Below are positions 3 to 37,700 of a stretch of 64,000 nucleotides of DNA, piece after piece. The stretch is taken from IMG/VR virus record IMGVR_UViG_3300030102_006934, positions 214,713 to 278,712 of that record. One strand, written 5' to 3'. The translations under genes and the position numbers were made by a program. Source of the DNA: a virus. The notes below the pieces were generated by a model. That model was not told where the DNA came from. It ran no database searches and worked only from the letters and a program-made list of their open reading frames with translations. Position 1 is the first letter of the stretch, and the number at the start of each line of letters is the position of its first letter.

Positions 3-293
3 GAAGGAGATGTGGATGAAAATTTTGTTTTAGCCGCTGACGAAGCTAAAGACAAGGGAGATGATGAATTTGAATATCCTAAAGGTAGTGGTAAGATGCA
101 TCCCGTAACAATTAAAGCCGATATAAAAAATGAAGAAAAAGAAGTAACTGAAATTACTGTGGGTGAAAAAAAATATAAAGTTGTGGAAGAGTCAGTAAAT
201 AAATTAACTGAAGCTTTATCTAACACAACTAATAAAGAAATTATAAAAGAAGATATGGATTTCTTTAATAAAATGGTAAATTATAAAAAATAA
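3..293 (+). CDS. Partial hypothetical protein (3' end only)
   Basis: The reading frame is open to the left edge of the window, so this is the C-terminal part of a longer protein. A GTG at 12 is in frame, but nothing marks it as the true start. About 96 residues are visible. They are rich in Lys and Glu, with an amphipathic C-terminal half and no Cys or membrane segment. The stop lies 7 bp before the next start, so the two genes are probably co-transcribed. No family is recognised. A leader like those of the following genes could lie upstream but is not visible. Confidence 0.6.
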   Translation, partial: EGDVDENFVLAADEAKDKGDDEFEYPKGSGKMHPVTIKADIKNEEKEVTEITVGEKKYKVVEESVNKLTEALSNTTNKEIIKEDMDFFNKMVNYKK

Positions 294-5432: not shown

Positions 5433-5464
5433 AAAAAAGGGACTAAAAAGTCCCTTTTTTTTTA
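5431..5464. terminator. Bidirectional intrinsic terminator
   Basis: A 6-bp stem GGGACT/AGTCCC (5439-5444 with 5449-5454) has a 4-nt loop, flanked by A8 on the left and T10 on the right. It therefore works for both the plus-strand cluster and the convergent clpP. Confidence 0.85.
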
Positions 5465-6136
5465 TCCAATAACCTCATCTATAATACCATAGTCTAAAGC
5501 TTCTTTTGAACCTAACCACAAATCTCTTTGTGCGTCTTTTTCAACTCTTTTAGCTGTTTTACCACAGTACTTACCTAATAACTCAAATAAAGTTTTATTA
5601 ACCTTTTCCCACTCATCAAACTGTATTCTAGCGTCTTGTATGTTACCACCCGCTCCACCACTAGATTGATGTAACATAGTTCTTGAGTGTGGTAAAGAAG
5701 CTCTCATACCTTTTGTACCAGCACCTAATAATACTGAGCCCATTGAAGCGGCCATACCAGTATTAATTGTTTGTATTTTTGTTGGAATATAATTCATAAC
5801 ATCTACCATAGATAGACCAGCTTTCACACTACCACCAGGACTATCTATATGCATTGTTATAGTTTTCTTTGGATCTTGTTGTGATAAATAAAGTAATTGT
5901 GCTTGTACTGTTATAGCCATTCTATCATCTACTGGACCAGCACACCAGATAATTCTATCCATCATTAGTCTATCAAATACAGACATTACAGCCATATTTA
6001 ATTGTCTCTCTTCTATAATAGTTGGGGTAACTGAAGCTGAAACGTTTGGTGCTACAGATTGTAACTCTTGATATGAGTTAATCATTTTTTCGTTTAAACC
6101 TAGGTGTTTTTTTGCGTACTTATTAAATTCTGACAT
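5462..6136 (-). CDS. clpP: ClpP-like serine protease (S14 family)
   Basis: The 224-aa protein has the full ClpP catalytic signature. Ser131 lies in GMAASMGS, His156 in MLHQSSGG and Asp205 in QRDLWL, with the oxyanion-loop IDSPGGSV at about 97-104. Length and motifs resemble bacterial ClpP more than the shorter phage-head S14 proteases. ClpP forms a tetradecameric chamber that degrades proteins fed by Clp ATPases; no Clp ATPase is visible here, so a host partner is likely. A prohead-maturation role is an alternative, and (I/L)xE sites in neighbouring proteins make it worth considering. The gene is a single minus-strand unit that ends in a shared terminator. Confidence 0.9.
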   Translation of the reverse strand: MSEFNKYAKKHLGLNEKMINSYQELQSVAPNVSASVTPTIIEERQLNMAVMSVFDRLMMDRIIWCAGPVDDRMAITVQAQLLYLSQQDPKKTITMHIDSPGGSVKAGLSMVDVMNYIPTKIQTINTGMAASMGSVLLGAGTKGMRASLPHSRTMLHQSSGGAGGNIQDARIQFDEWEKVNKTLFELLGKYCGKTAKRVEKDAQRDLWLGSKEALDYGIIDEVIG

Positions 6137-6236: not shown

Positions 6237-8609
6237 ATGTCACTAAACAGGGATAACAACGCTTTATTAGATTTACTAGATAATAAGATTGATTTAATAA
6301 AAATAGATTTAATAGAAACCATTGATGAACTAGATGGTTTGGAAAATAAGTTAATACCAGAAAGTCATTTATTATTAGAGAAGGTATCTTTATGGAGTAA
6401 GGTTAAGTACGGACTATCAAAATTAGGTAGGTATAAAGCTGGGGGTAAGATTTTAGGTAAAAGAAAAATAGACCAAGAGACCGCGGCTAAAATAGTTAGA
6501 ATACTAGATAAAAAGGGTAATGAGTCTTTAAAAGAATTAGATTCTTTAATAAAACAACAAAGTTCTAAGGGTAAGGGTGATTTCCCAAATAACCAAGACC
6601 CAGAGATATTTCTAAATATAATAGAGTCAATAGCGGCTGTTTACGATTCGATAGTGGAAGCTACTAAAAAGAATTCTGAAGAAAAAGGATTTTTACCAAT
6701 AGATGCTGCTAATTCAATTATACTAGATTTAAGAGAATATGTTAAGAAATTTTTAGATGTTGATTTATCAGCTGCCTATTCTGTTATGGATTCTGAAGAA
6801 GAAAAAGAAAGTGAATTAATAGTTGATAATACCATTGAAGAAGATAGGTCTAAGGATGTTAGGAAAAAATTACAGGCTAAAGTAGGTAAGGACGCCGAAA
6901 AAATAGATTCTCAAAGAATGAAGACTTTGAAGTCTTGGAAATTACCGTTAGCTTTATTAGGTACAGGAGCTTCTTTTGGGGCTTTAAGTTGGTTAATTCA
7001 TTATCTTTTTGACCCTCAAGAAATTACTCAAATGTCACCTGAAGAAATAAGGTCGGCTAGTGAGGGTACTTTGGGGAATATTCAACCAGGTGAAGGATTT
7101 ACTCAAATAATGAACAGAACAATGGATATGGATTTAGGACCAGGTTCAGACCCTAATGATGTTGTTGCTGGTTTATCTAAATTAGGTGATGGTGATCCAA
7201 ACGTGGGTATAGATATAATCACACAAAAAGGTGGTATATTTCAAGACCCAGTTGCGGCTAAAGCAACATTAAGTGAGATAGTTAGTAACCCAAATGGTCA
7301 TGGTGATAATTTAGGAGAAGTATTTAAAGGTGATTGGGCTGGTACTGGAAAAAATGCTGGTGATACTTTAGTTACTGTACCAGGTGGTACTTTGAAGGGT
7401 ATGATTGTTAAAAGTATTATTAGGTGGACAACCAAAAAAACTATTGTTGGTGGTAGTAAAATGTTAATAGCTGCACCAATACTTAAGATATTAGGTATTG
7501 CTTTATTTGGTGGGGGTGTTGCTGTTAAATTAATGAGGGAAAAAGGTAAGAGACAATCTAGATCTAAAACCTTAGATGATTTATTACAATCACTACAATT
7601 GGTTAAACCTACAAAAGAGAACCCACCTATCATAGATATTAAACCAGAAGATGAAGAAGACCCAGATGAAATTATAGATGACCCTAAAGGAGGTGAAGGA
7701 GATGACCCTAAAGGAGATGACCCTAAAGGAGATGACCCTAAAGGAGGCGAAGGAGATGACCCTAAAGGAGGCGAAGGAGATGACCCTAAAGGAGGTTCTG
7801 GTGGTGGAACAACAGGTGGGGGTACTGATGATCCTAGTATACCTAAAGATTTCCTAGATGGTAATAGAAACATGCAGTTAGCTTATTTATCTAAAAACTT
7901 TTTACCTGGTGGTAAAAGTTTGTGGGATAGACTTGGATTAAAAGAGGGTACTGTTTTACCTTCTGGACTTTTTGACGCAGCTTTAGGACAAGGTAAAGTA
8001 GACCAAGAAAAGTATTTAAAAGCCTTTTTCAATAAACTAAAAAAAGATGGTGACTTACTTAAGGACACTAGTTTTGATAAATGGAAGAAGGGTTTATTTA
8101 AGAAAGATAATTTAGCTTTAGTAGCGTGGATTAGGAATACTAGAAAAGGTATTGGTTCTTTCTTTAAAAAACTTAAGGACGCTTTCCCAGAGTTTGAAAT
8201 TAGTACTAGAGCTAAAGCAGGTATCTCAAAACCTGGTCAAAGAGGTAAGGGAGCTGGAACAGCGGGTAGTATAAACAATTCAACAGATATTAGATATGAT
8301 TTAATAATAGAAGCAGGTTTAGGTAGTACGGCTAATCAAGCTGGTTTTGACGAGTCTACTTTTATGAAAAATTTACCACAATTTATGAAAATGTTAGCTT
8401 CAATGTACTTTGGAGCTAAAGGTAGTAAGTTATACTATAATGAAAAGGCTGTATTAGATAAGTGTAAGAAATATGGTTGTAAAGCAACATCTTCAAAAGA
8501 GTTCGATAAAAGTGTTTCCGATGATTACTATTTAATAGATGATCAAAAAATGAAACAAGAAAAGACTTTAAACGAAGAAATAATGAGAATAAGACAATTA
8601 ATGAAATAA
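6237..8609 (+). CDS. Large two-TM structural/ejection protein with DPKG repeat linker
   Basis: The 790-aa protein has an N-terminal helical region (1-230), a hydrophobic segment at about 235-256 and a second at about 408-430. A low-complexity acidic Gly/Pro linker follows at about 481-520, built from six DDPKG units. The C-terminal domain is basic and ends in LNEEIMRIRQLMK. IPES near residue 41 fits an (I/L)xE site. It lies just upstream of the tail tube gene on the same strand. Two separated membrane segments in a large non-enzymatic phage protein suggest an ejected or pore-type protein, but that is inference and no family is recognised. Confidence 0.6.
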   Translation: MSLNRDNNALLDLLDNKIDLIKIDLIETIDELDGLENKLIPESHLLLEKVSLWSKVKYGLSKLGRYKAGGKILGKRKIDQETAAKIVRILDKKGNESLKELDSLIKQQSSKGKGDFPNNQDPEIFLNIIESIAAVYDSIVEATKKNSEEKGFLPIDAANSIILDLREYVKKFLDVDLSAAYSVMDSEEEKESELIVDNTIEEDRSKDVRKKLQAKVGKDAEKIDSQRMKTLKSWKLPLALLGTGASFGALSWLIHYLFDPQEITQMSPEEIRSASEGTLGNIQPGEGFTQIMNRTMDMDLGPGSDPNDVVAGLSKLGDGDPNVGIDIITQKGGIFQDPVAAKATLSEIVSNPNGHGDNLGEVFKGDWAGTGKNAGDTLVTVPGGTLKGMIVKSIIRWTTKKTIVGGSKMLIAAPILKILGIALFGGGVAVKLMREKGKRQSRSKTLDDLLQSLQLVKPTKENPPIIDIKPEDEEDPDEIIDDPKGGEGDDPKGDDPKGDDPKGGEGDDPKGGEGDDPKGGSGGGTTGGGTDDPSIPKDFLDGNRNMQLAYLSKNFLPGGKSLWDRLGLKEGTVLPSGLFDAALGQGKVDQEKYLKAFFNKLKKDGDLLKDTSFDKWKKGLFKKDNLALVAWIRNTRKGIGSFFKKLKDAFPEFEISTRAKAGISKPGQRGKGAGTAGSINNSTDIRYDLIIEAGLGSTANQAGFDESTFMKNLPQFMKMLASMYFGAKGSKLYYNEKAVLDKCKKYGCKATSSKEFDKSVSDDYYLIDDQKMKQEKTLNEEIMRIRQLMK
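7677..7795 (+). repeat. In-frame tandem repeat (GATGACCCTAAAGGA units)
   Basis: Six copies of the 15-bp unit GATGACCCTAAAGGA start at 7677, 7701, 7716, 7731, 7755 and 7779. Three of the intervals carry an extra 9-bp GGYGAAGGA. All spacings are multiples of three, so copy-number changes keep the frame. Confidence 0.9.
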
Positions 8610-34749: not shown

Positions 34750-34780
34750 TTGAATTAATTAATTAATTTGTCTATCTTTG
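34750..34780 (+). promoter_or_regulatory. Bacteroidota-type promoter (TTG-N20-TATCTTTG)
   Basis: TTG (34750-34752) and TATCTTTG (34773-34780) are 20 bp apart, matching the Bacteroidota consensus. The ATG at 34786 would then lie at or within a few bases of the transcription start, giving a nearly leaderless mRNA. Confidence 0.55.
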
Positions 34781-34785
34781 TTGAT

Positions 34786-35340
34786 ATGATAAAAGTTATA
34801 ACAAATAATAGAGATGTTGTTGAAAAGTATCTAGATTCTAACTTTTCTTTTGAAAATGGGTTTATCACAGTTTACATAGGTTGGGATTTAGCTAAAGAAA
34901 ATGGGGCTTCAATTTTAAATCATAAAATAGATGAAAGAACTTATTGGACTTTTTTACCCACAGAAAAAAGAAAAGTTTTTCAAGAATCATTAGAAGAATT
35001 TAAAAGTATTGTTTTTAATAAGATTAAAAGTGAGATAAAATTCTATAATATAAACCCATTAGACCACAACACCAAAGAAGAAGTACTCTCTTTTATTTTA
35101 GACAAACTTATCGATTTTATTGGATATTTATATAAAGAAAAAATCTATTTTTATAAAAATAAAACAGTTTATCATTTAGATTTAGGTTTTTTAGATTTTA
35201 TGAACTGGAACATAATTGATGAAATTACGAGTAAAATAAGTATCAGACCTTTAGAAGTGACTGATAATAACTTGGAAATAAAATATATACCATATCTGAT
35301 AGATGCAGAAAAAAATAATATTATTAACAACGTTTGTTAA
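34786..35340 (+). CDS. Hypothetical protein
   Basis: I choose the ATG at 34786 (184 aa, MIKVITNN) over the TTG at 34768, which lies inside the apparent promoter. The protein is Lys/Ile/Phe-rich, with a segment at about 105-125 (LSFILDKLIDFIGYLYK) that is probably an amphipathic helix rather than a membrane span. No family is recognised. It is followed by an ORF overlapping by 38 bp. Its host-like promoter differs from the ATATTTATA elements of the structural genes, so it may be expressed early. Confidence 0.6.
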   Translation: MIKVITNNRDVVEKYLDSNFSFENGFITVYIGWDLAKENGASILNHKIDERTYWTFLPTEKRKVFQESLEEFKSIVFNKIKSEIKFYNINPLDHNTKEEVLSFILDKLIDFIGYLYKEKIYFYKNKTVYHLDLGFLDFMNWNIIDEITSKISIRPLEVTDNNLEIKYIPYLIDAEKNNIINNVC

Positions 35341-35707
35341 TCCTTCCTATCTAGAAAACTTTTTAAACATGTTAGAAAAAAGGCACTCCATAAAAAGAGA
35401 GAGTGTTTTTATTTTTGAAACATCGGGAGAAGATCTAATACTAACCTTCAAAATATATTTAAATATAGGTGAAAGAATAGATATTAGAAAAGAATTTAGA
35501 AGAACACTACAAATACATAAAAAAGGCAAAACCTTTTTCACTATCAACGCTTTAAATAGGTTGATAGAAATCGATTTTAATTTAACACCTGGTAACATAG
35601 ACTATAAAAGTCATGAGGTTGATTGGTCAAAATATTCTGATAAGATGATATTATTGAAAAATAACGAATTAGAGATTTTGGATATAAAAAGAAAGATTAT
35701 AGAATAA
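35303..35707 (+). CDS. Hypothetical protein
   Basis: The 134-aa protein alternates short strands and helices. A short stretch before the middle (ESVFIFETSGEDLILTFKIYL) is followed by KGKTFFTINALNRLIEID and a C-terminal LLKNNELEILDIKRKII. It overlaps the upstream gene by 38 bp, suggesting coupling. The FFTINALN stretch looks like a conserved motif, but I cannot name the family. Confidence 0.55.
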   Translation: MQKKIILLTTFVNPSYLENFLNMLEKRHSIKRESVFIFETSGEDLILTFKIYLNIGERIDIRKEFRRTLQIHKKGKTFFTINALNRLIEIDFNLTPGNIDYKSHEVDWSKYSDKMILLKNNELEILDIKRKIIE

Positions 35708-35711
35708 GGGC

Positions 35712-35726
35712 ATATTTATAAGAAAA
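35712..35726 (+). promoter_or_regulatory. ATATTTATA-type element (candidate phage promoter)
   Basis: ATATTTATAAGAAAA lies 7 bp before the ATG at 35734. Confidence 0.5.
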
Positions 35727-35733
35727 ACTAGTT

Positions 35734-35919
35734 ATGGAAAACACTAATAAAAATAAAGAAAAAGAACTTAATAATAATCTAAACAACTTTTTGGATAAAA
35801 ACACAAGTTGTGAAGGTGATGAGTGTTTAATAAAAGATAACGATGAGTTAGTTCAGAGAGAACATAAAAAAATCATCACCAATGATGGTAGACAACTATT
35901 AAGTGAATACACAAGATAA
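35734..35919 (+). CDS. Small hydrophilic protein
   Basis: The 61-aa protein is Asn/Lys/Glu-rich, with two Cys in TSCEGDECLI and a C-terminal KKIITNDGRQLLSEYTR. The LLSE near its end is again an (I/L)xE-like site. It has its own upstream ATATTTATA element and is followed after 1 bp by the acidic protein gene. No family is recognised. Confidence 0.55.
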   Translation: MENTNKNKEKELNNNLNNFLDKNTSCEGDECLIKDNDELVQREHKKIITNDGRQLLSEYTR

Positions 35920-35920
35920 A

Positions 35921-36673
35921 ATGAAAAAGAGCAATTTAAATGAAGATTTAGAAAGATTTAATAATCTTATAGACTACAACCCATTAAAGGGTAATGTATT
36001 ATCTGAAGCTAAAACTAGAAGAACTTATTTATCAGAAGAAGAACCAGAAGGTGAAGAAGCACCAGCTGAAGAAGAAGAAATAAATGATTCCGATTTTGAT
36101 TTCGGTGATGAAGGTTCACCAGAGGGAGAAGAAACATCATCTGAAGAAATGCCAGCTGAAGAAGAACCAGCTGAAGAAGAACCAGTAGAAGATGAATTCG
36201 GTACTGCAGATGAATTTACTGCTTCTGATGAGTTAGAAGACGAAGGTGAGGTTGAAGAGATTGATGTTACAGCGATAGTTGGTAAATCAGAAGAAGCTAA
36301 AGATTTAGCACAGAAAGCGGTAACAGTAGGTGAAAAAAATACTGAATTTTTACAATCATTAACAGATAAGTTAAATAACCTAGAATCTAGTTTATCTAAA
36401 ATGGATACAATAGCTACCAAAATAAATAAATTAGAACAAGAAGTTAAAACACCAGAAGAAAAATTAGAACTGAGGTCTTTAGATAGTTACCCCTTCAATA
36501 TGAAATTGACTGATTATTGGGAAGAAAAAGCTTCTAAAGATAAAAATTATAGAATATCTGGTGGTGAAGAAATATCTAACGGTGAAGAAAAAGAATATGT
36601 TATAAAGCCAGAAGATATAGAAAACTTCAATGATAACGACATTGAAAAATCTTTTAGTCCAGAAAGTAACTAA
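35921..36673 (+). CDS. Acidic protein with leader motif, possible scaffold or internal protein
   Basis: The ATG at 35921 (250 aa) is preferred over the GTG at 35903 because it directly follows the preceding stop. The leader SNLNEDLERFNNLIDYNPLKGNVLSEA ends in LSE|A, a textbook T4 prohead-protease site. Residues about 40-120 are extremely rich in Glu, Pro and Ala. Residues 130-190 form a coiled coil (LQSLTDKLNNLESSLSKM), and the C-terminus is charged. An acidic low-complexity stretch with a coiled coil fits scaffold-like or internal head proteins, but no family is recognised. A terminator follows at 36697-36725. Confidence 0.6.
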   Translation: MKKSNLNEDLERFNNLIDYNPLKGNVLSEAKTRRTYLSEEEPEGEEAPAEEEEINDSDFDFGDEGSPEGEETSSEEMPAEEEPAEEEPVEDEFGTADEFTASDELEDEGEVEEIDVTAIVGKSEEAKDLAQKAVTVGEKNTEFLQSLTDKLNNLESSLSKMDTIATKINKLEQEVKTPEEKLELRSLDSYPFNMKLTDYWEEKASKDKNYRISGGEEISNGEEKEYVIKPEDIENFNDNDIEKSFSPESN

Positions 36674-36696
36674 ATATAAAACATTATTACATATAT

Positions 36697-36731
36697 AAAT
36701 GGGGATAATTAATTTGTCCCCATTTTTTGTT
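36697..36731 (+). terminator. Intrinsic terminator
   Basis: AAATGGGGA (36697-36705) pairs with TCCCCATTT (36717-36725) around an 11-nt loop. T-rich sequence follows. Confidence 0.8.
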
Positions 36732-36739
36732 TTTATGGC

Positions 36740-36768
36740 TTTACATTAAACTTTATTTATCTTATAAT
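36740..36768 (+). promoter_or_regulatory. Possible promoter of SSB gene (TTTACA-N17-TATAAT)
   Basis: TTTACA at 36740-36745 and TATAAT at 36763-36768 are spaced by 17 bp, 41 bp before the SSB ATG and just after a terminator. The form is general sigma70-like. The overlapping TTATTTATC resembles the phage element weakly. Confidence 0.4.
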
Positions 36769-36809
36769 TAGAACAATTAAATAAATTATAAATAAAAAAA
36801 AAGAAAATT

Positions 36810-37700
36810 ATGAGTGTACTCGATGCGATTGCGAAACAGTATGAAAAGAATAAAACTGGTGGTAACTCCGGTGGTAGTTCATACGAACAAGATTGGAGCA
36901 AATATTTTGCTGTAAGATTAGAAGAAGGTGTTGATAATGGTGAATCTACCATTAGAATTATGCCACCCAAAAAATCTGTTCACCCAGTTATTAAAGAAGA
37001 GAATACACCTTTTGATGAAGGTCACTGGCATTCAGTAAAGGTAAATGGTAAATGGAGAAAAATTTATTGTAGAAAATACAATGATGGTGAACACTGTCCT
37101 TTGTGTGAAGTTGCTGATGAGTTATTTAAGTCTTGGAAAGAGACTGGTAACAAAGCAGATAAAGAATTAGCCACTCAATATTCAGCTAAAAAATACTACA
37201 TAGCTAGAGTTATTGATAGGGATAAGGAAGATGATGGTGTTAAATTTTGGAGATTTCCTCACAATTATAAAGGAGAGGGAGCTTTAGACAAAATAATTCC
37301 TTTATTTACAAAAAGAGGTGACATTACCGACCCTAGAGAAGGTAGAGACCTTACTTTAATTTTAGGTAGAGATAATAAAGGTTATTCTAAAATAACTTCT
37401 ATTATGGCTGAAGATGTTGATGTTTTAACTGATCCTAAATCTGAAAAGGCTAAAACTTGGATGACTGACGAGACTACTTGGAAAGATGTCTACAAAGCAC
37501 AACCATTAGATTATGTACAACTTATTGCGGATGGTGAAACACCACAGTGGGACAAGTCTTTAAACAAGTTTGTCGCTAAGGGTGATGATGGAGAGTCTGA
37601 AACATCTATGAGAAGTTCTACTACAAACACGAACACGAATACAAACACAGAAGAAGAGATGTTTAGTACATCATCTAATGATGACGAACAACCATTCTAA
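36810..37700 (+). CDS. gp32-like single-stranded DNA-binding protein
   Basis: The 296-aa protein matches T4 gp32 (301 aa) in length and plan. It has a basic N-terminal arm and a core with the zinc site (His72 or His74, Cys87, Cys96 and Cys99 in NDGEHCPLCE). Aromatic-rich DNA-binding strands (YYIARVIDRD, VKFWRFPHNYKG) follow, then a Ser/Thr/Asn-rich linker and an acidic tail ending DDEQPF. gp32 coats single-stranded DNA and recruits replication and recombination proteins through its acidic tail. It heads the DNA module and has its own promoter region. Confidence 0.9.
   Translation: MSVLDAIAKQYEKNKTGGNSGGSSYEQDWSKYFAVRLEEGVDNGESTIRIMPPKKSVHPVIKEENTPFDEGHWHSVKVNGKWRKIYCRKYNDGEHCPLCEVADELFKSWKETGNKADKELATQYSAKKYYIARVIDRDKEDDGVKFWRFPHNYKGEGALDKIIPLFTKRGDITDPREGRDLTLILGRDNKGYSKITSIMAEDVDVLTDPKSEKAKTWMTDETTWKDVYKAQPLDYVQLIADGETPQWDKSLNKFVAKGDDGESETSMRSSTTNTNTNTNTEEEMFSTSSNDDEQPF

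Follow-up and report, generated by a model that had tools for sequence, protein, structure and literature searches.

Genes and features of the locus

The window analysed here (the whole stretch of 64,000 nucleotides) covers bases 214713-278712 of a 380,343-base IMG/VR record, G000, from a T4-like phage. The features considered below are the following, in window coordinates unless G000 is given.

243..290, plus strand: tentative C-terminal tag IKEDMDFFNKMVNYKK of a 260-aa ORF that starts upstream of the window
6237..8609, plus strand: 790-aa protein with two hydrophobic stretches, DDPKG repeats and a C-terminal tag
8568..8606, plus strand: C-terminal tag LNEEIMRIRQLMK of the 790-aa protein, second-best of 136 ORFs against the scaffold-tail matrix
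35921..36673, plus strand: acidic 250-aa protein with an N-terminal leader helix, a disordered acidic linker, a long helix and a conserved C-terminal part
35936..35977, plus strand: leader helix LNEDLERFNNLIDY, similar to PELEKMKKLWDY, the scaffold tail of this phage
35999..36010, plus strand: L-S-E/A (bond after E), proposed prohead-protease site that would free the leader
G000 151810-152367: gp21-type prohead protease (Peptidase_S77 E 4.5e-29; PHROG head maturation protease)
G000, between the protease and capsid genes: presumed scaffold, an acidic 412-aa ORF with the C-terminal end VNPELEKMKKLWDYQYKH
G000 155604-157403: gp23-type capsid gene

The ORF program starts the acidic protein at GTG 35903; ATG 35921 comes right after the upstream stop, and from this ATG the protein reads MKKSNLNEDLERFNNLIDYNPLKGNVLSEAKTRRTY, with MKKSNLNEDLERFNNLIDYNPLKGNVLSEAKTRR as its opening stretch. 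The leader motif and the LSE/A site that the preliminary description had seen on this protein are borne out at 35936-35977 and 35999-36010, as is the similarity it had noted between the C-terminus of the 790-aa protein (TLNEEIMRIRQLMK) and the first half of the motif (8568-8606). Judged from their sequences, both motifs appear to be forms of a single type of element. Two close homologues of the 790-aa protein have the C-terminal end LKEEITRIRQLMK, and five more distant homologues, 40-54% identical where they align, are among the C-tag matches listed in the position-blind scans described below. Neither the acidic nor the 790-aa protein had matches in Pfam and PHROG scans or in tblastn searches of named phages. 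The 790-aa gene is adjoined by a ClpP-type protease gene on the minus strand (window 5462-6136, Pfam E 2.9e-60), the product of which has the N-terminus MSEFNKYAKKHLGLNEK.

Relatives of the acidic protein were found at 49 IMG/VR loci. The motif regex matched 32 of 34 distinct complete N-termini, counted over the window and 41 of the 49 loci, with eight loci excluded for their cut N-termini. All 32 motif-bearing N-termini contain [LIVM]xE after the motif, 6-8 residues downstream in 31 of them, compared with frequencies of 0.34 and 0.02 in random 25-residue stretches taken from the acidic middle and the C-terminal half of the acidic proteins, respectively. The P1' residue among these relatives is often K, R or V and in this differs from the bonds cut by T4 gp21, which are E-A and E-G. 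The acidic middle varies across relatives, and the C-terminal part is strongly conserved (SLDSYPFNMKLTDYW). An AlphaFold model built from eight sequences (mean pLDDT 61) contains an isolated helix at residues 3-16 and a long helix at 116-175, with pLDDT below 50 at 27-59 and 61-90; a fold search with this model gave no match at E 0.001 or better. Proteins adjoining acidic-protein relatives (L161, L162) share an N-terminal leader of their own, M[KR]I[YF]...GSK.RLF[ED]M.

The acidic protein is encoded in a five-gene cassette (190-aa, 134-aa, 61-aa, acidic and 296-aa proteins) at window 34768-37700. We take the 296-aa protein to be gp32-type, and the genes directly downstream of the acidic protein gene are presumably gp32-type and RecA-type, as judged from phage gene content and gene order. 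A second, diverged copy of the cassette (G000:C1, 25-41% protein identity) lies at about 16-20 kb of G000, and its acidic protein, at about 17 kb, bears a similar leader. This duplicate is either a true duplication or else the mark of a chimeric record.

The scaffold tail and its matches

G000 also encodes a gp20-type portal. In T4, gene 22 lies between genes 21 and 23, and the 412-aa ORF was named scaffold from the equivalent position and from its acidic, helical make-up; in PHROGs it has no matches, and the scaffold of immuto, a cultured phage that grows on Flavobacterium sp. LMO8, has only weak, unnamed ones. The scaffold model, built from 15 sequences (mean pLDDT 55), places a terminal helix at 397-411 behind a segment with pLDDT below 50, that is, a conserved C-terminal helix on a flexible tether (helix confidence about 60-70, with the scaffold identified by position). 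Of 80 loci with related capsid genes, 71 allowed the ORF just 5' of that gene to be read, and exclusion of one repeat left 70 tails that were registered or tried. The pattern [RK][MFIWV]xx[LI][AMWI] occurs near the end of 57 of these 70 tails and a looser form in 69; examples are RFKKLAGIK, NEHVNRIKKLMDYGIKKK, ENPQFLRMKDLMSKLR and, in G016, PEIEKMKKLWGYSYKK.

A scaffold-tail matrix was compiled from 66 sequences, comprising 60 distinct tails registered by regex, four by eye, and the scaffolds of G000 and Mel-JY01. Among 136 ORFs of G000 (the window plus 78 kb) it ranked the scaffold itself first and the C-terminus of the 790-aa protein second. The acidic leader scored 7.1 bits (rank 18 of 136, or rank 4 with termini alone scored), and those leaders of relatives that were scored alongside it gave 3.4-9.5 bits, apart from one at 18.3 bits. 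The tentative tag of the 260-aa ORF ranked 7-8 of 136 with termini alone scored. In immuto (228 ORFs) the top match was its own scaffold tail (VSEQVSRWQKLAGIIK), which is absent from the matrix, followed at ranks 2 and 3 by two hypothetical proteins, each matched at its N-terminus (LSEQFRRMQKLAGIITES and LSEQFKRMQFLAGIITES). In Mel-JY01 (212 ORFs, 150 of 190 kb) the scaffold alone stands out, and the next eight matches are all non-terminal. Over 2555 ORFs, scores of at least 15 bits were reached by 67 C-terminal stretches (63 of them training tails), by five N-terminal ones (none in the training set) and by no internal one, with one match each in shuffled and reversed control sequences; at 13 bits there are eight internal matches too.

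Across all of G000 a looser pattern gave eight matches, two of them the acidic-protein and 790-aa termini and another, at G000 340648, the N-terminus MKTINEEINRIKQIMGLLNEEG of a protein with P-loop kinase/AAA-like Pfam matches; the remainder are four internal matches (one of them 43 residues from the C-terminus) and one in a 19-codon frame. A further pattern run over 12 records matched four real ORFs, every one at a terminus: both acidic proteins of G000 and the C-termini KVLLEEISRIKKLMK (G016) and ELREEIKRIKELL (G015). It also matched two short frames of 38 and 24 codons.

Several observations on the two named phages lie beside these counts. The immuto scaffold (L167 45582-46820) is annotated as DNA polymerase phi-like and has an internal duplication of about 60 residues. 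Four immuto proteins (L168 1803; L167 23762, 37587 and 38588) share the N-terminal leader MENFDLKKFLVENKLTxNSxLL, by its sequence a second family of leaders, here in a phage that has been cultured. In Mel-JY01, a 428-aa protein encoded two genes 5' of the RecA-type gene (L025 2405-3688) has the C-terminus ITREQLKEKIRIIVKRVLNEAMK, which resembles the leader type found at 0-5 kb of the window, yet is C-terminal.

Position-blind scans

The first regex counts were written after the sequences had been seen and are not taken as proof. A stricter regex, applied to 1311 ORFs around capsid genes, matched one N-terminal, one C-terminal and five internal stretches, none of them tag-like, since the scaffold tails do not fit this stricter form. 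IMG/VR was scanned with DNA patterns for EEIxRIKx(L/F)M and RMQxLAGI that have no position built in, and each returned at least 120 stretches. Among the matches listed with GC below 50%, the EEIxRIKxLM pattern is C-terminal in 45, N-terminal in 37 and internal in 2 (82/84 terminal), and the RMQxLAGI pattern is C-terminal in 81, N-terminal in 37 and internal in 4 (118/122 terminal). Three of the six internal low-GC matches may themselves be N-terminal tags, namely L285, with no ATG 5' of the match, and L442 and L445, with a nearer upstream Met.

The reversed peptide, at the same degeneracy, has 3 matches in the whole of IMG/VR versus at least 120 stretches for the forward one, and one of the three is N-terminal under the same rule. 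In a cellular collection of 84,980 species the forward pattern has 44 matches, of which those in frames of at least 80 aa are C-terminal in no case, N-terminal in 4 and internal in 19 (L516, scored as internal, may start at a non-ATG codon and would then be N-terminal). The difference between the distinct low-GC viral frames listed (46/48 terminal) and the cellular ones is significant (Fisher p = 2e-11), the uniform expectation being 14% terminal. The GC cut, which was chosen after the table had been seen, excluded matches with GC of 50% or more, amounting to 39 of the 123 EEI-type matches listed (36 from one family, which we take to be actinophages) and 1 of the 123 LAGI-type ones. With no GC cut, the 57 distinct EEI-type frames of at least 80 aa listed include 26 C-terminal, 25 N-terminal and 6 internal matches, five of the 25 N-terminal ones being GC-rich and placed by the first-ATG rule. 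A third pattern, EExLxRFxxLLGY, had 23 matches, of which 16 are N-terminal and low in GC (the acidic family), 5 are internal and belong to one 297-aa family, and 2 lie in short frames with GC of 50% or more. A lack of enrichment, named in the preliminary description as the outcome that would speak against the motif, was not what these scans returned: the motif is commoner and far more often terminal than in the reversed and cellular controls.

Tagged proteins and protease-type sites

Among the 200 terminal low-GC matches listed, 162 have closed frame ends, and clustering of these proteins with the tags removed (blastp E 1e-4) yielded 51 clusters, 42 N-tagged and 9 C-tagged. The largest cluster is scaffold-like (57/162 listed); the other 50 comprise 42 N-tagged and 8 C-tagged ones. 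Residues beyond the LAGI pattern recur across clusters, with MK.Q[LI]NE upstream and I[TNK]E downstream. Six of 20 tagged proteins scanned have Pfam matches above the curated cut-off, to unrelated domains, namely a GNAT acetyltransferase, PAP2, PQ-loop, a peptidoglycan-binding domain, an aldolase of the DeoC/LacD type and a cell-wall hydrolase. The hydrolase, C-tagged and from its domains a candidate packaged lytic enzyme, is

L200 8655-10655: M23 + VanY two-domain cell-wall hydrolase with a C-terminal tag

The triplet [LIVMFA]xE lies within 10 residues after the N-terminal tag in 34 of the 36 LAGI-type cases listed (background 0.16) and in 13 of the 20 EEI-type cases listed (background 0.25). 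All 26 distinct EEI-type C-terminal tags listed have the triplet within the 13 residues up to and including the first E of the tag, a residue that the pattern itself fixes. Upstream of the scaffold LAGI tails it is present in 59/70 versus a background of 0.64, an excess that is small because scaffolds are glutamate-rich. According to the portion of PMC9026906 that deals with T4 gp21, cleavage by this protease follows L/I-x-E.

Tag type and scaffold type

Among 18 genomes drawn from the EEIxRIKxLM matches listed, 17 combine LM-type tags with a scaffold of the LM type. The 18 genomes are those, out of 31 records selected solely by that pattern among the matches listed, in which the scaffold was identified; 16 of their scaffold ends are of the R[MI]K..L[MI] type, one is AIKDLM and one is of the LW.Y type (LWSY). 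As the 16 matching tails are near-identical (YENPQFxRMKDLM etc.), the match in type may stem from a single lineage and not from many separate events.

In 19 records selected as mostly LAGI-type, the LAGI pattern occurs at 18 places, 15 of which are scaffold tails (11) or N-termini (4, with two in immuto and one each in G032 and G004); the other three are internal or antisense, and the match in Mel-JY01 other than its scaffold is antisense. Three of the 19 records lack a match to the pattern, two having LANI tails and one RWQKLAGI, all outside its reach. In 15 other records the pattern matched once, in a 39-codon frame.

Comparison of leaders with the scaffolds of their own genomes (12 leaders, nine genomes) gave an overall permutation p of 0.001, which is carried by the type split and is partly built in, since the LAGI search supplied the G004 leader and the mixed scaffold matrix another three. 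Within types the similarity is not significant (81/720 permutations for non-LAGI, 2/6 for LAGI). The LAGI count in the 15 other records and the scaffolds selected by EEIxRIKxLM were chosen independently of this comparison, the latter being largely one lineage.

Spread among T4-like phages

The LAGI pattern has no matches in T4, P-SSM4, Syn9 and S-PM2, one match in P-SSM2, in a 62-codon frame, and one in HTVC008M, inside the tape-measure protein. With matches few or absent in T4 and the cyanophages, the tag type looks confined to part of the T4-like phages. By capsid protein, the named records nearest to immuto are Mel-JY01, LR756508 and RM378, and the ORF adjoining the capsid gene of RM378 ends in DLERIKRLAGL. 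A literature search for virion proteomics of immuto, Mel-JY01, LR756508 and RM378 found none; the available portion of PMC7077304 contains no mass spectrometry and no mention of immuto. Titles and opening lines of abstracts in the open-licence literature yielded no scaffold-tail tag of this kind.

Proposed mechanism and alternative readings

The preliminary description had proposed a second leader family placed at either end of proteins. Its relatedness of the motifs and their occurrence at either terminus hold, but the element is more than a leader family and resembles the C-terminal tail of the scaffold. In our view the motif is quite probably a docking helix that different proteins can carry, that imitates the scaffold's C-terminal tail and that acts as a capsid-targeting signal usable at either end. 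Since the scaffold tail is a short, flexibly tethered helix at the extreme C-terminus, it most likely holds on to some component of the prohead under assembly. We infer here the identity of the scaffold (from position and make-up), the docking partner, packaging, cleavage and injection. The scaffold tail would dock on a partner, probably the inner face of the capsid protein; tagged proteins, such as the N-tagged acidic protein and the C-tagged 790-aa protein, would dock at the same site and be trapped inside on closure of the shell. Cleavage by the gp21-type protease at the adjacent hydrophobic-x-E would next free the protein into the head interior, and the cut tag peptide would exit the head. 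Removal of the tag by the prohead protease is probable.

On balance, and with somewhat less confidence, we favour extending this reading to widespread uncultured T4-like phages. Scaffold-tail mimicry would there be a general packing code, by which any protein with an acquired tail at its N- or C-terminus is packed into the head, released by the protease and perhaps passed on to the host, and the code would differ by lineage (LAGI, LM, LxY), with scaffold and cargo tags matched.

The cargo idea of the preliminary description fits the tagged enzymes, whereas the acidic protein may be part of the prohead core. That it is a minor core component like T4 gp67, with the leader as an anchor, and not injected cargo, has an appreciable probability, though we think the opposite the better guess. 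It is acidic and has a long helix, its neighbouring genes are kept in four further copies read, and T4 gp67 is by its sequence likewise acidic, with several hydrophobic-x-E sites, and is cleaved (PMC9026906, in the passages available). The strongly conserved C-terminal part of the acidic protein (SLDSYPFNMKLTDYW), however, is absent from gp67, and the gene lies far from the head cluster. Such a role is compatible with the tag mechanism and changes only the fate of the acidic protein.

Other readings concern the tag itself. It is unlikely to be a generic amphipathic prohead-assembly or membrane-docking helix that gathers proteins at the inner membrane with no specific protein partner: the tag does look amphipathic, hydrophobic or PQ-loop stretches occur in some of the tagged proteins, and T4 proheads begin at the membrane via the portal and YidC (PMC9026906, in the passages available), but a generic membrane helix does not need a tag type that tracks the scaffold type, and the residues outside the LAGI pattern recur in different clusters. 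Slightly less likely still is binding to a non-capsid partner of phage or host (e.g., a clamp, polymerase or chaperone) that the scaffold tail shares incidentally. The commonest LAGI bearer is scaffold-like (57/162 listed) and protease-type sites follow most N-terminal tags, both of which count against such a partner; the position of the acidic gene directly 5' of genes that we presume, from gene order, to be gp32-type and RecA-type, in a neighbourhood repeated in the record, counts for it. Chance likeness among short amphipathic helices is very improbable, for although the motif is short and the first regexes postdate sight of the sequences, this reading is contradicted by the position-blind scans and by the reversed and cellular controls.

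If the docking-helix reading is right, the head contents of many uncultured large phages become predictable from sequence, and dozens of unnamed small proteins become candidate packaged proteins, as do the acetyltransferase, the aldolase-like protein, the cell-wall hydrolase and the P-loop protein. Acquisition of a scaffold-tail copy would then be a suggested route by which T4-like phages take on new internal proteins, and a very short tag could load proteins into T4-like heads of this sort.

Comparison with known systems

Inner head proteins of SPN3US and phiKZ carry propeptides that are cut at a short motif ending in E and are thought to be prohead-targeting, and the paralogues gp53 and gp54 have an identical 15-residue N-terminus (PMC5694885, in the portion available). 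These propeptides are mostly much longer than the tag described here (several exceed 100 residues), and the gp22 counterpart is unconfirmed according to the same portion, which reports no scaffold-tail likeness for them (PMC5694885). In P22, cargo fused to a truncated scaffold that includes the C-terminal part gets packaged, as described in the accessible text of PMC9962691. This is a functional precedent, though an engineered one; the tag here is apparently natural, about 12-16 residues long, placed at either end and next to protease-type sites.

The closest parallel is the capsid-targeting sequence (CTS) of T4, borne by IPI-IPIII and Alt and cut by gp21. Like the T4 signal, the tag is short and terminal, has hydrophobic-x-E after it in most cases and belongs to a phage that encodes a gp21-type protease. 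In T4, Alt undergoes processing at its two ends (PMC9026906, in the part available), which is a precedent for C-terminal tags. The T4 sequences compared were gp67, gp68, gp21, gp22 and the opening residues of gp23 and gp24; gp22 ends differently, and T4 has no match to the LAGI pattern. Unlike the T4 CTS, the tag described here resembles the tail of the scaffold, occurs on many different proteins and varies in type together with the scaffold.
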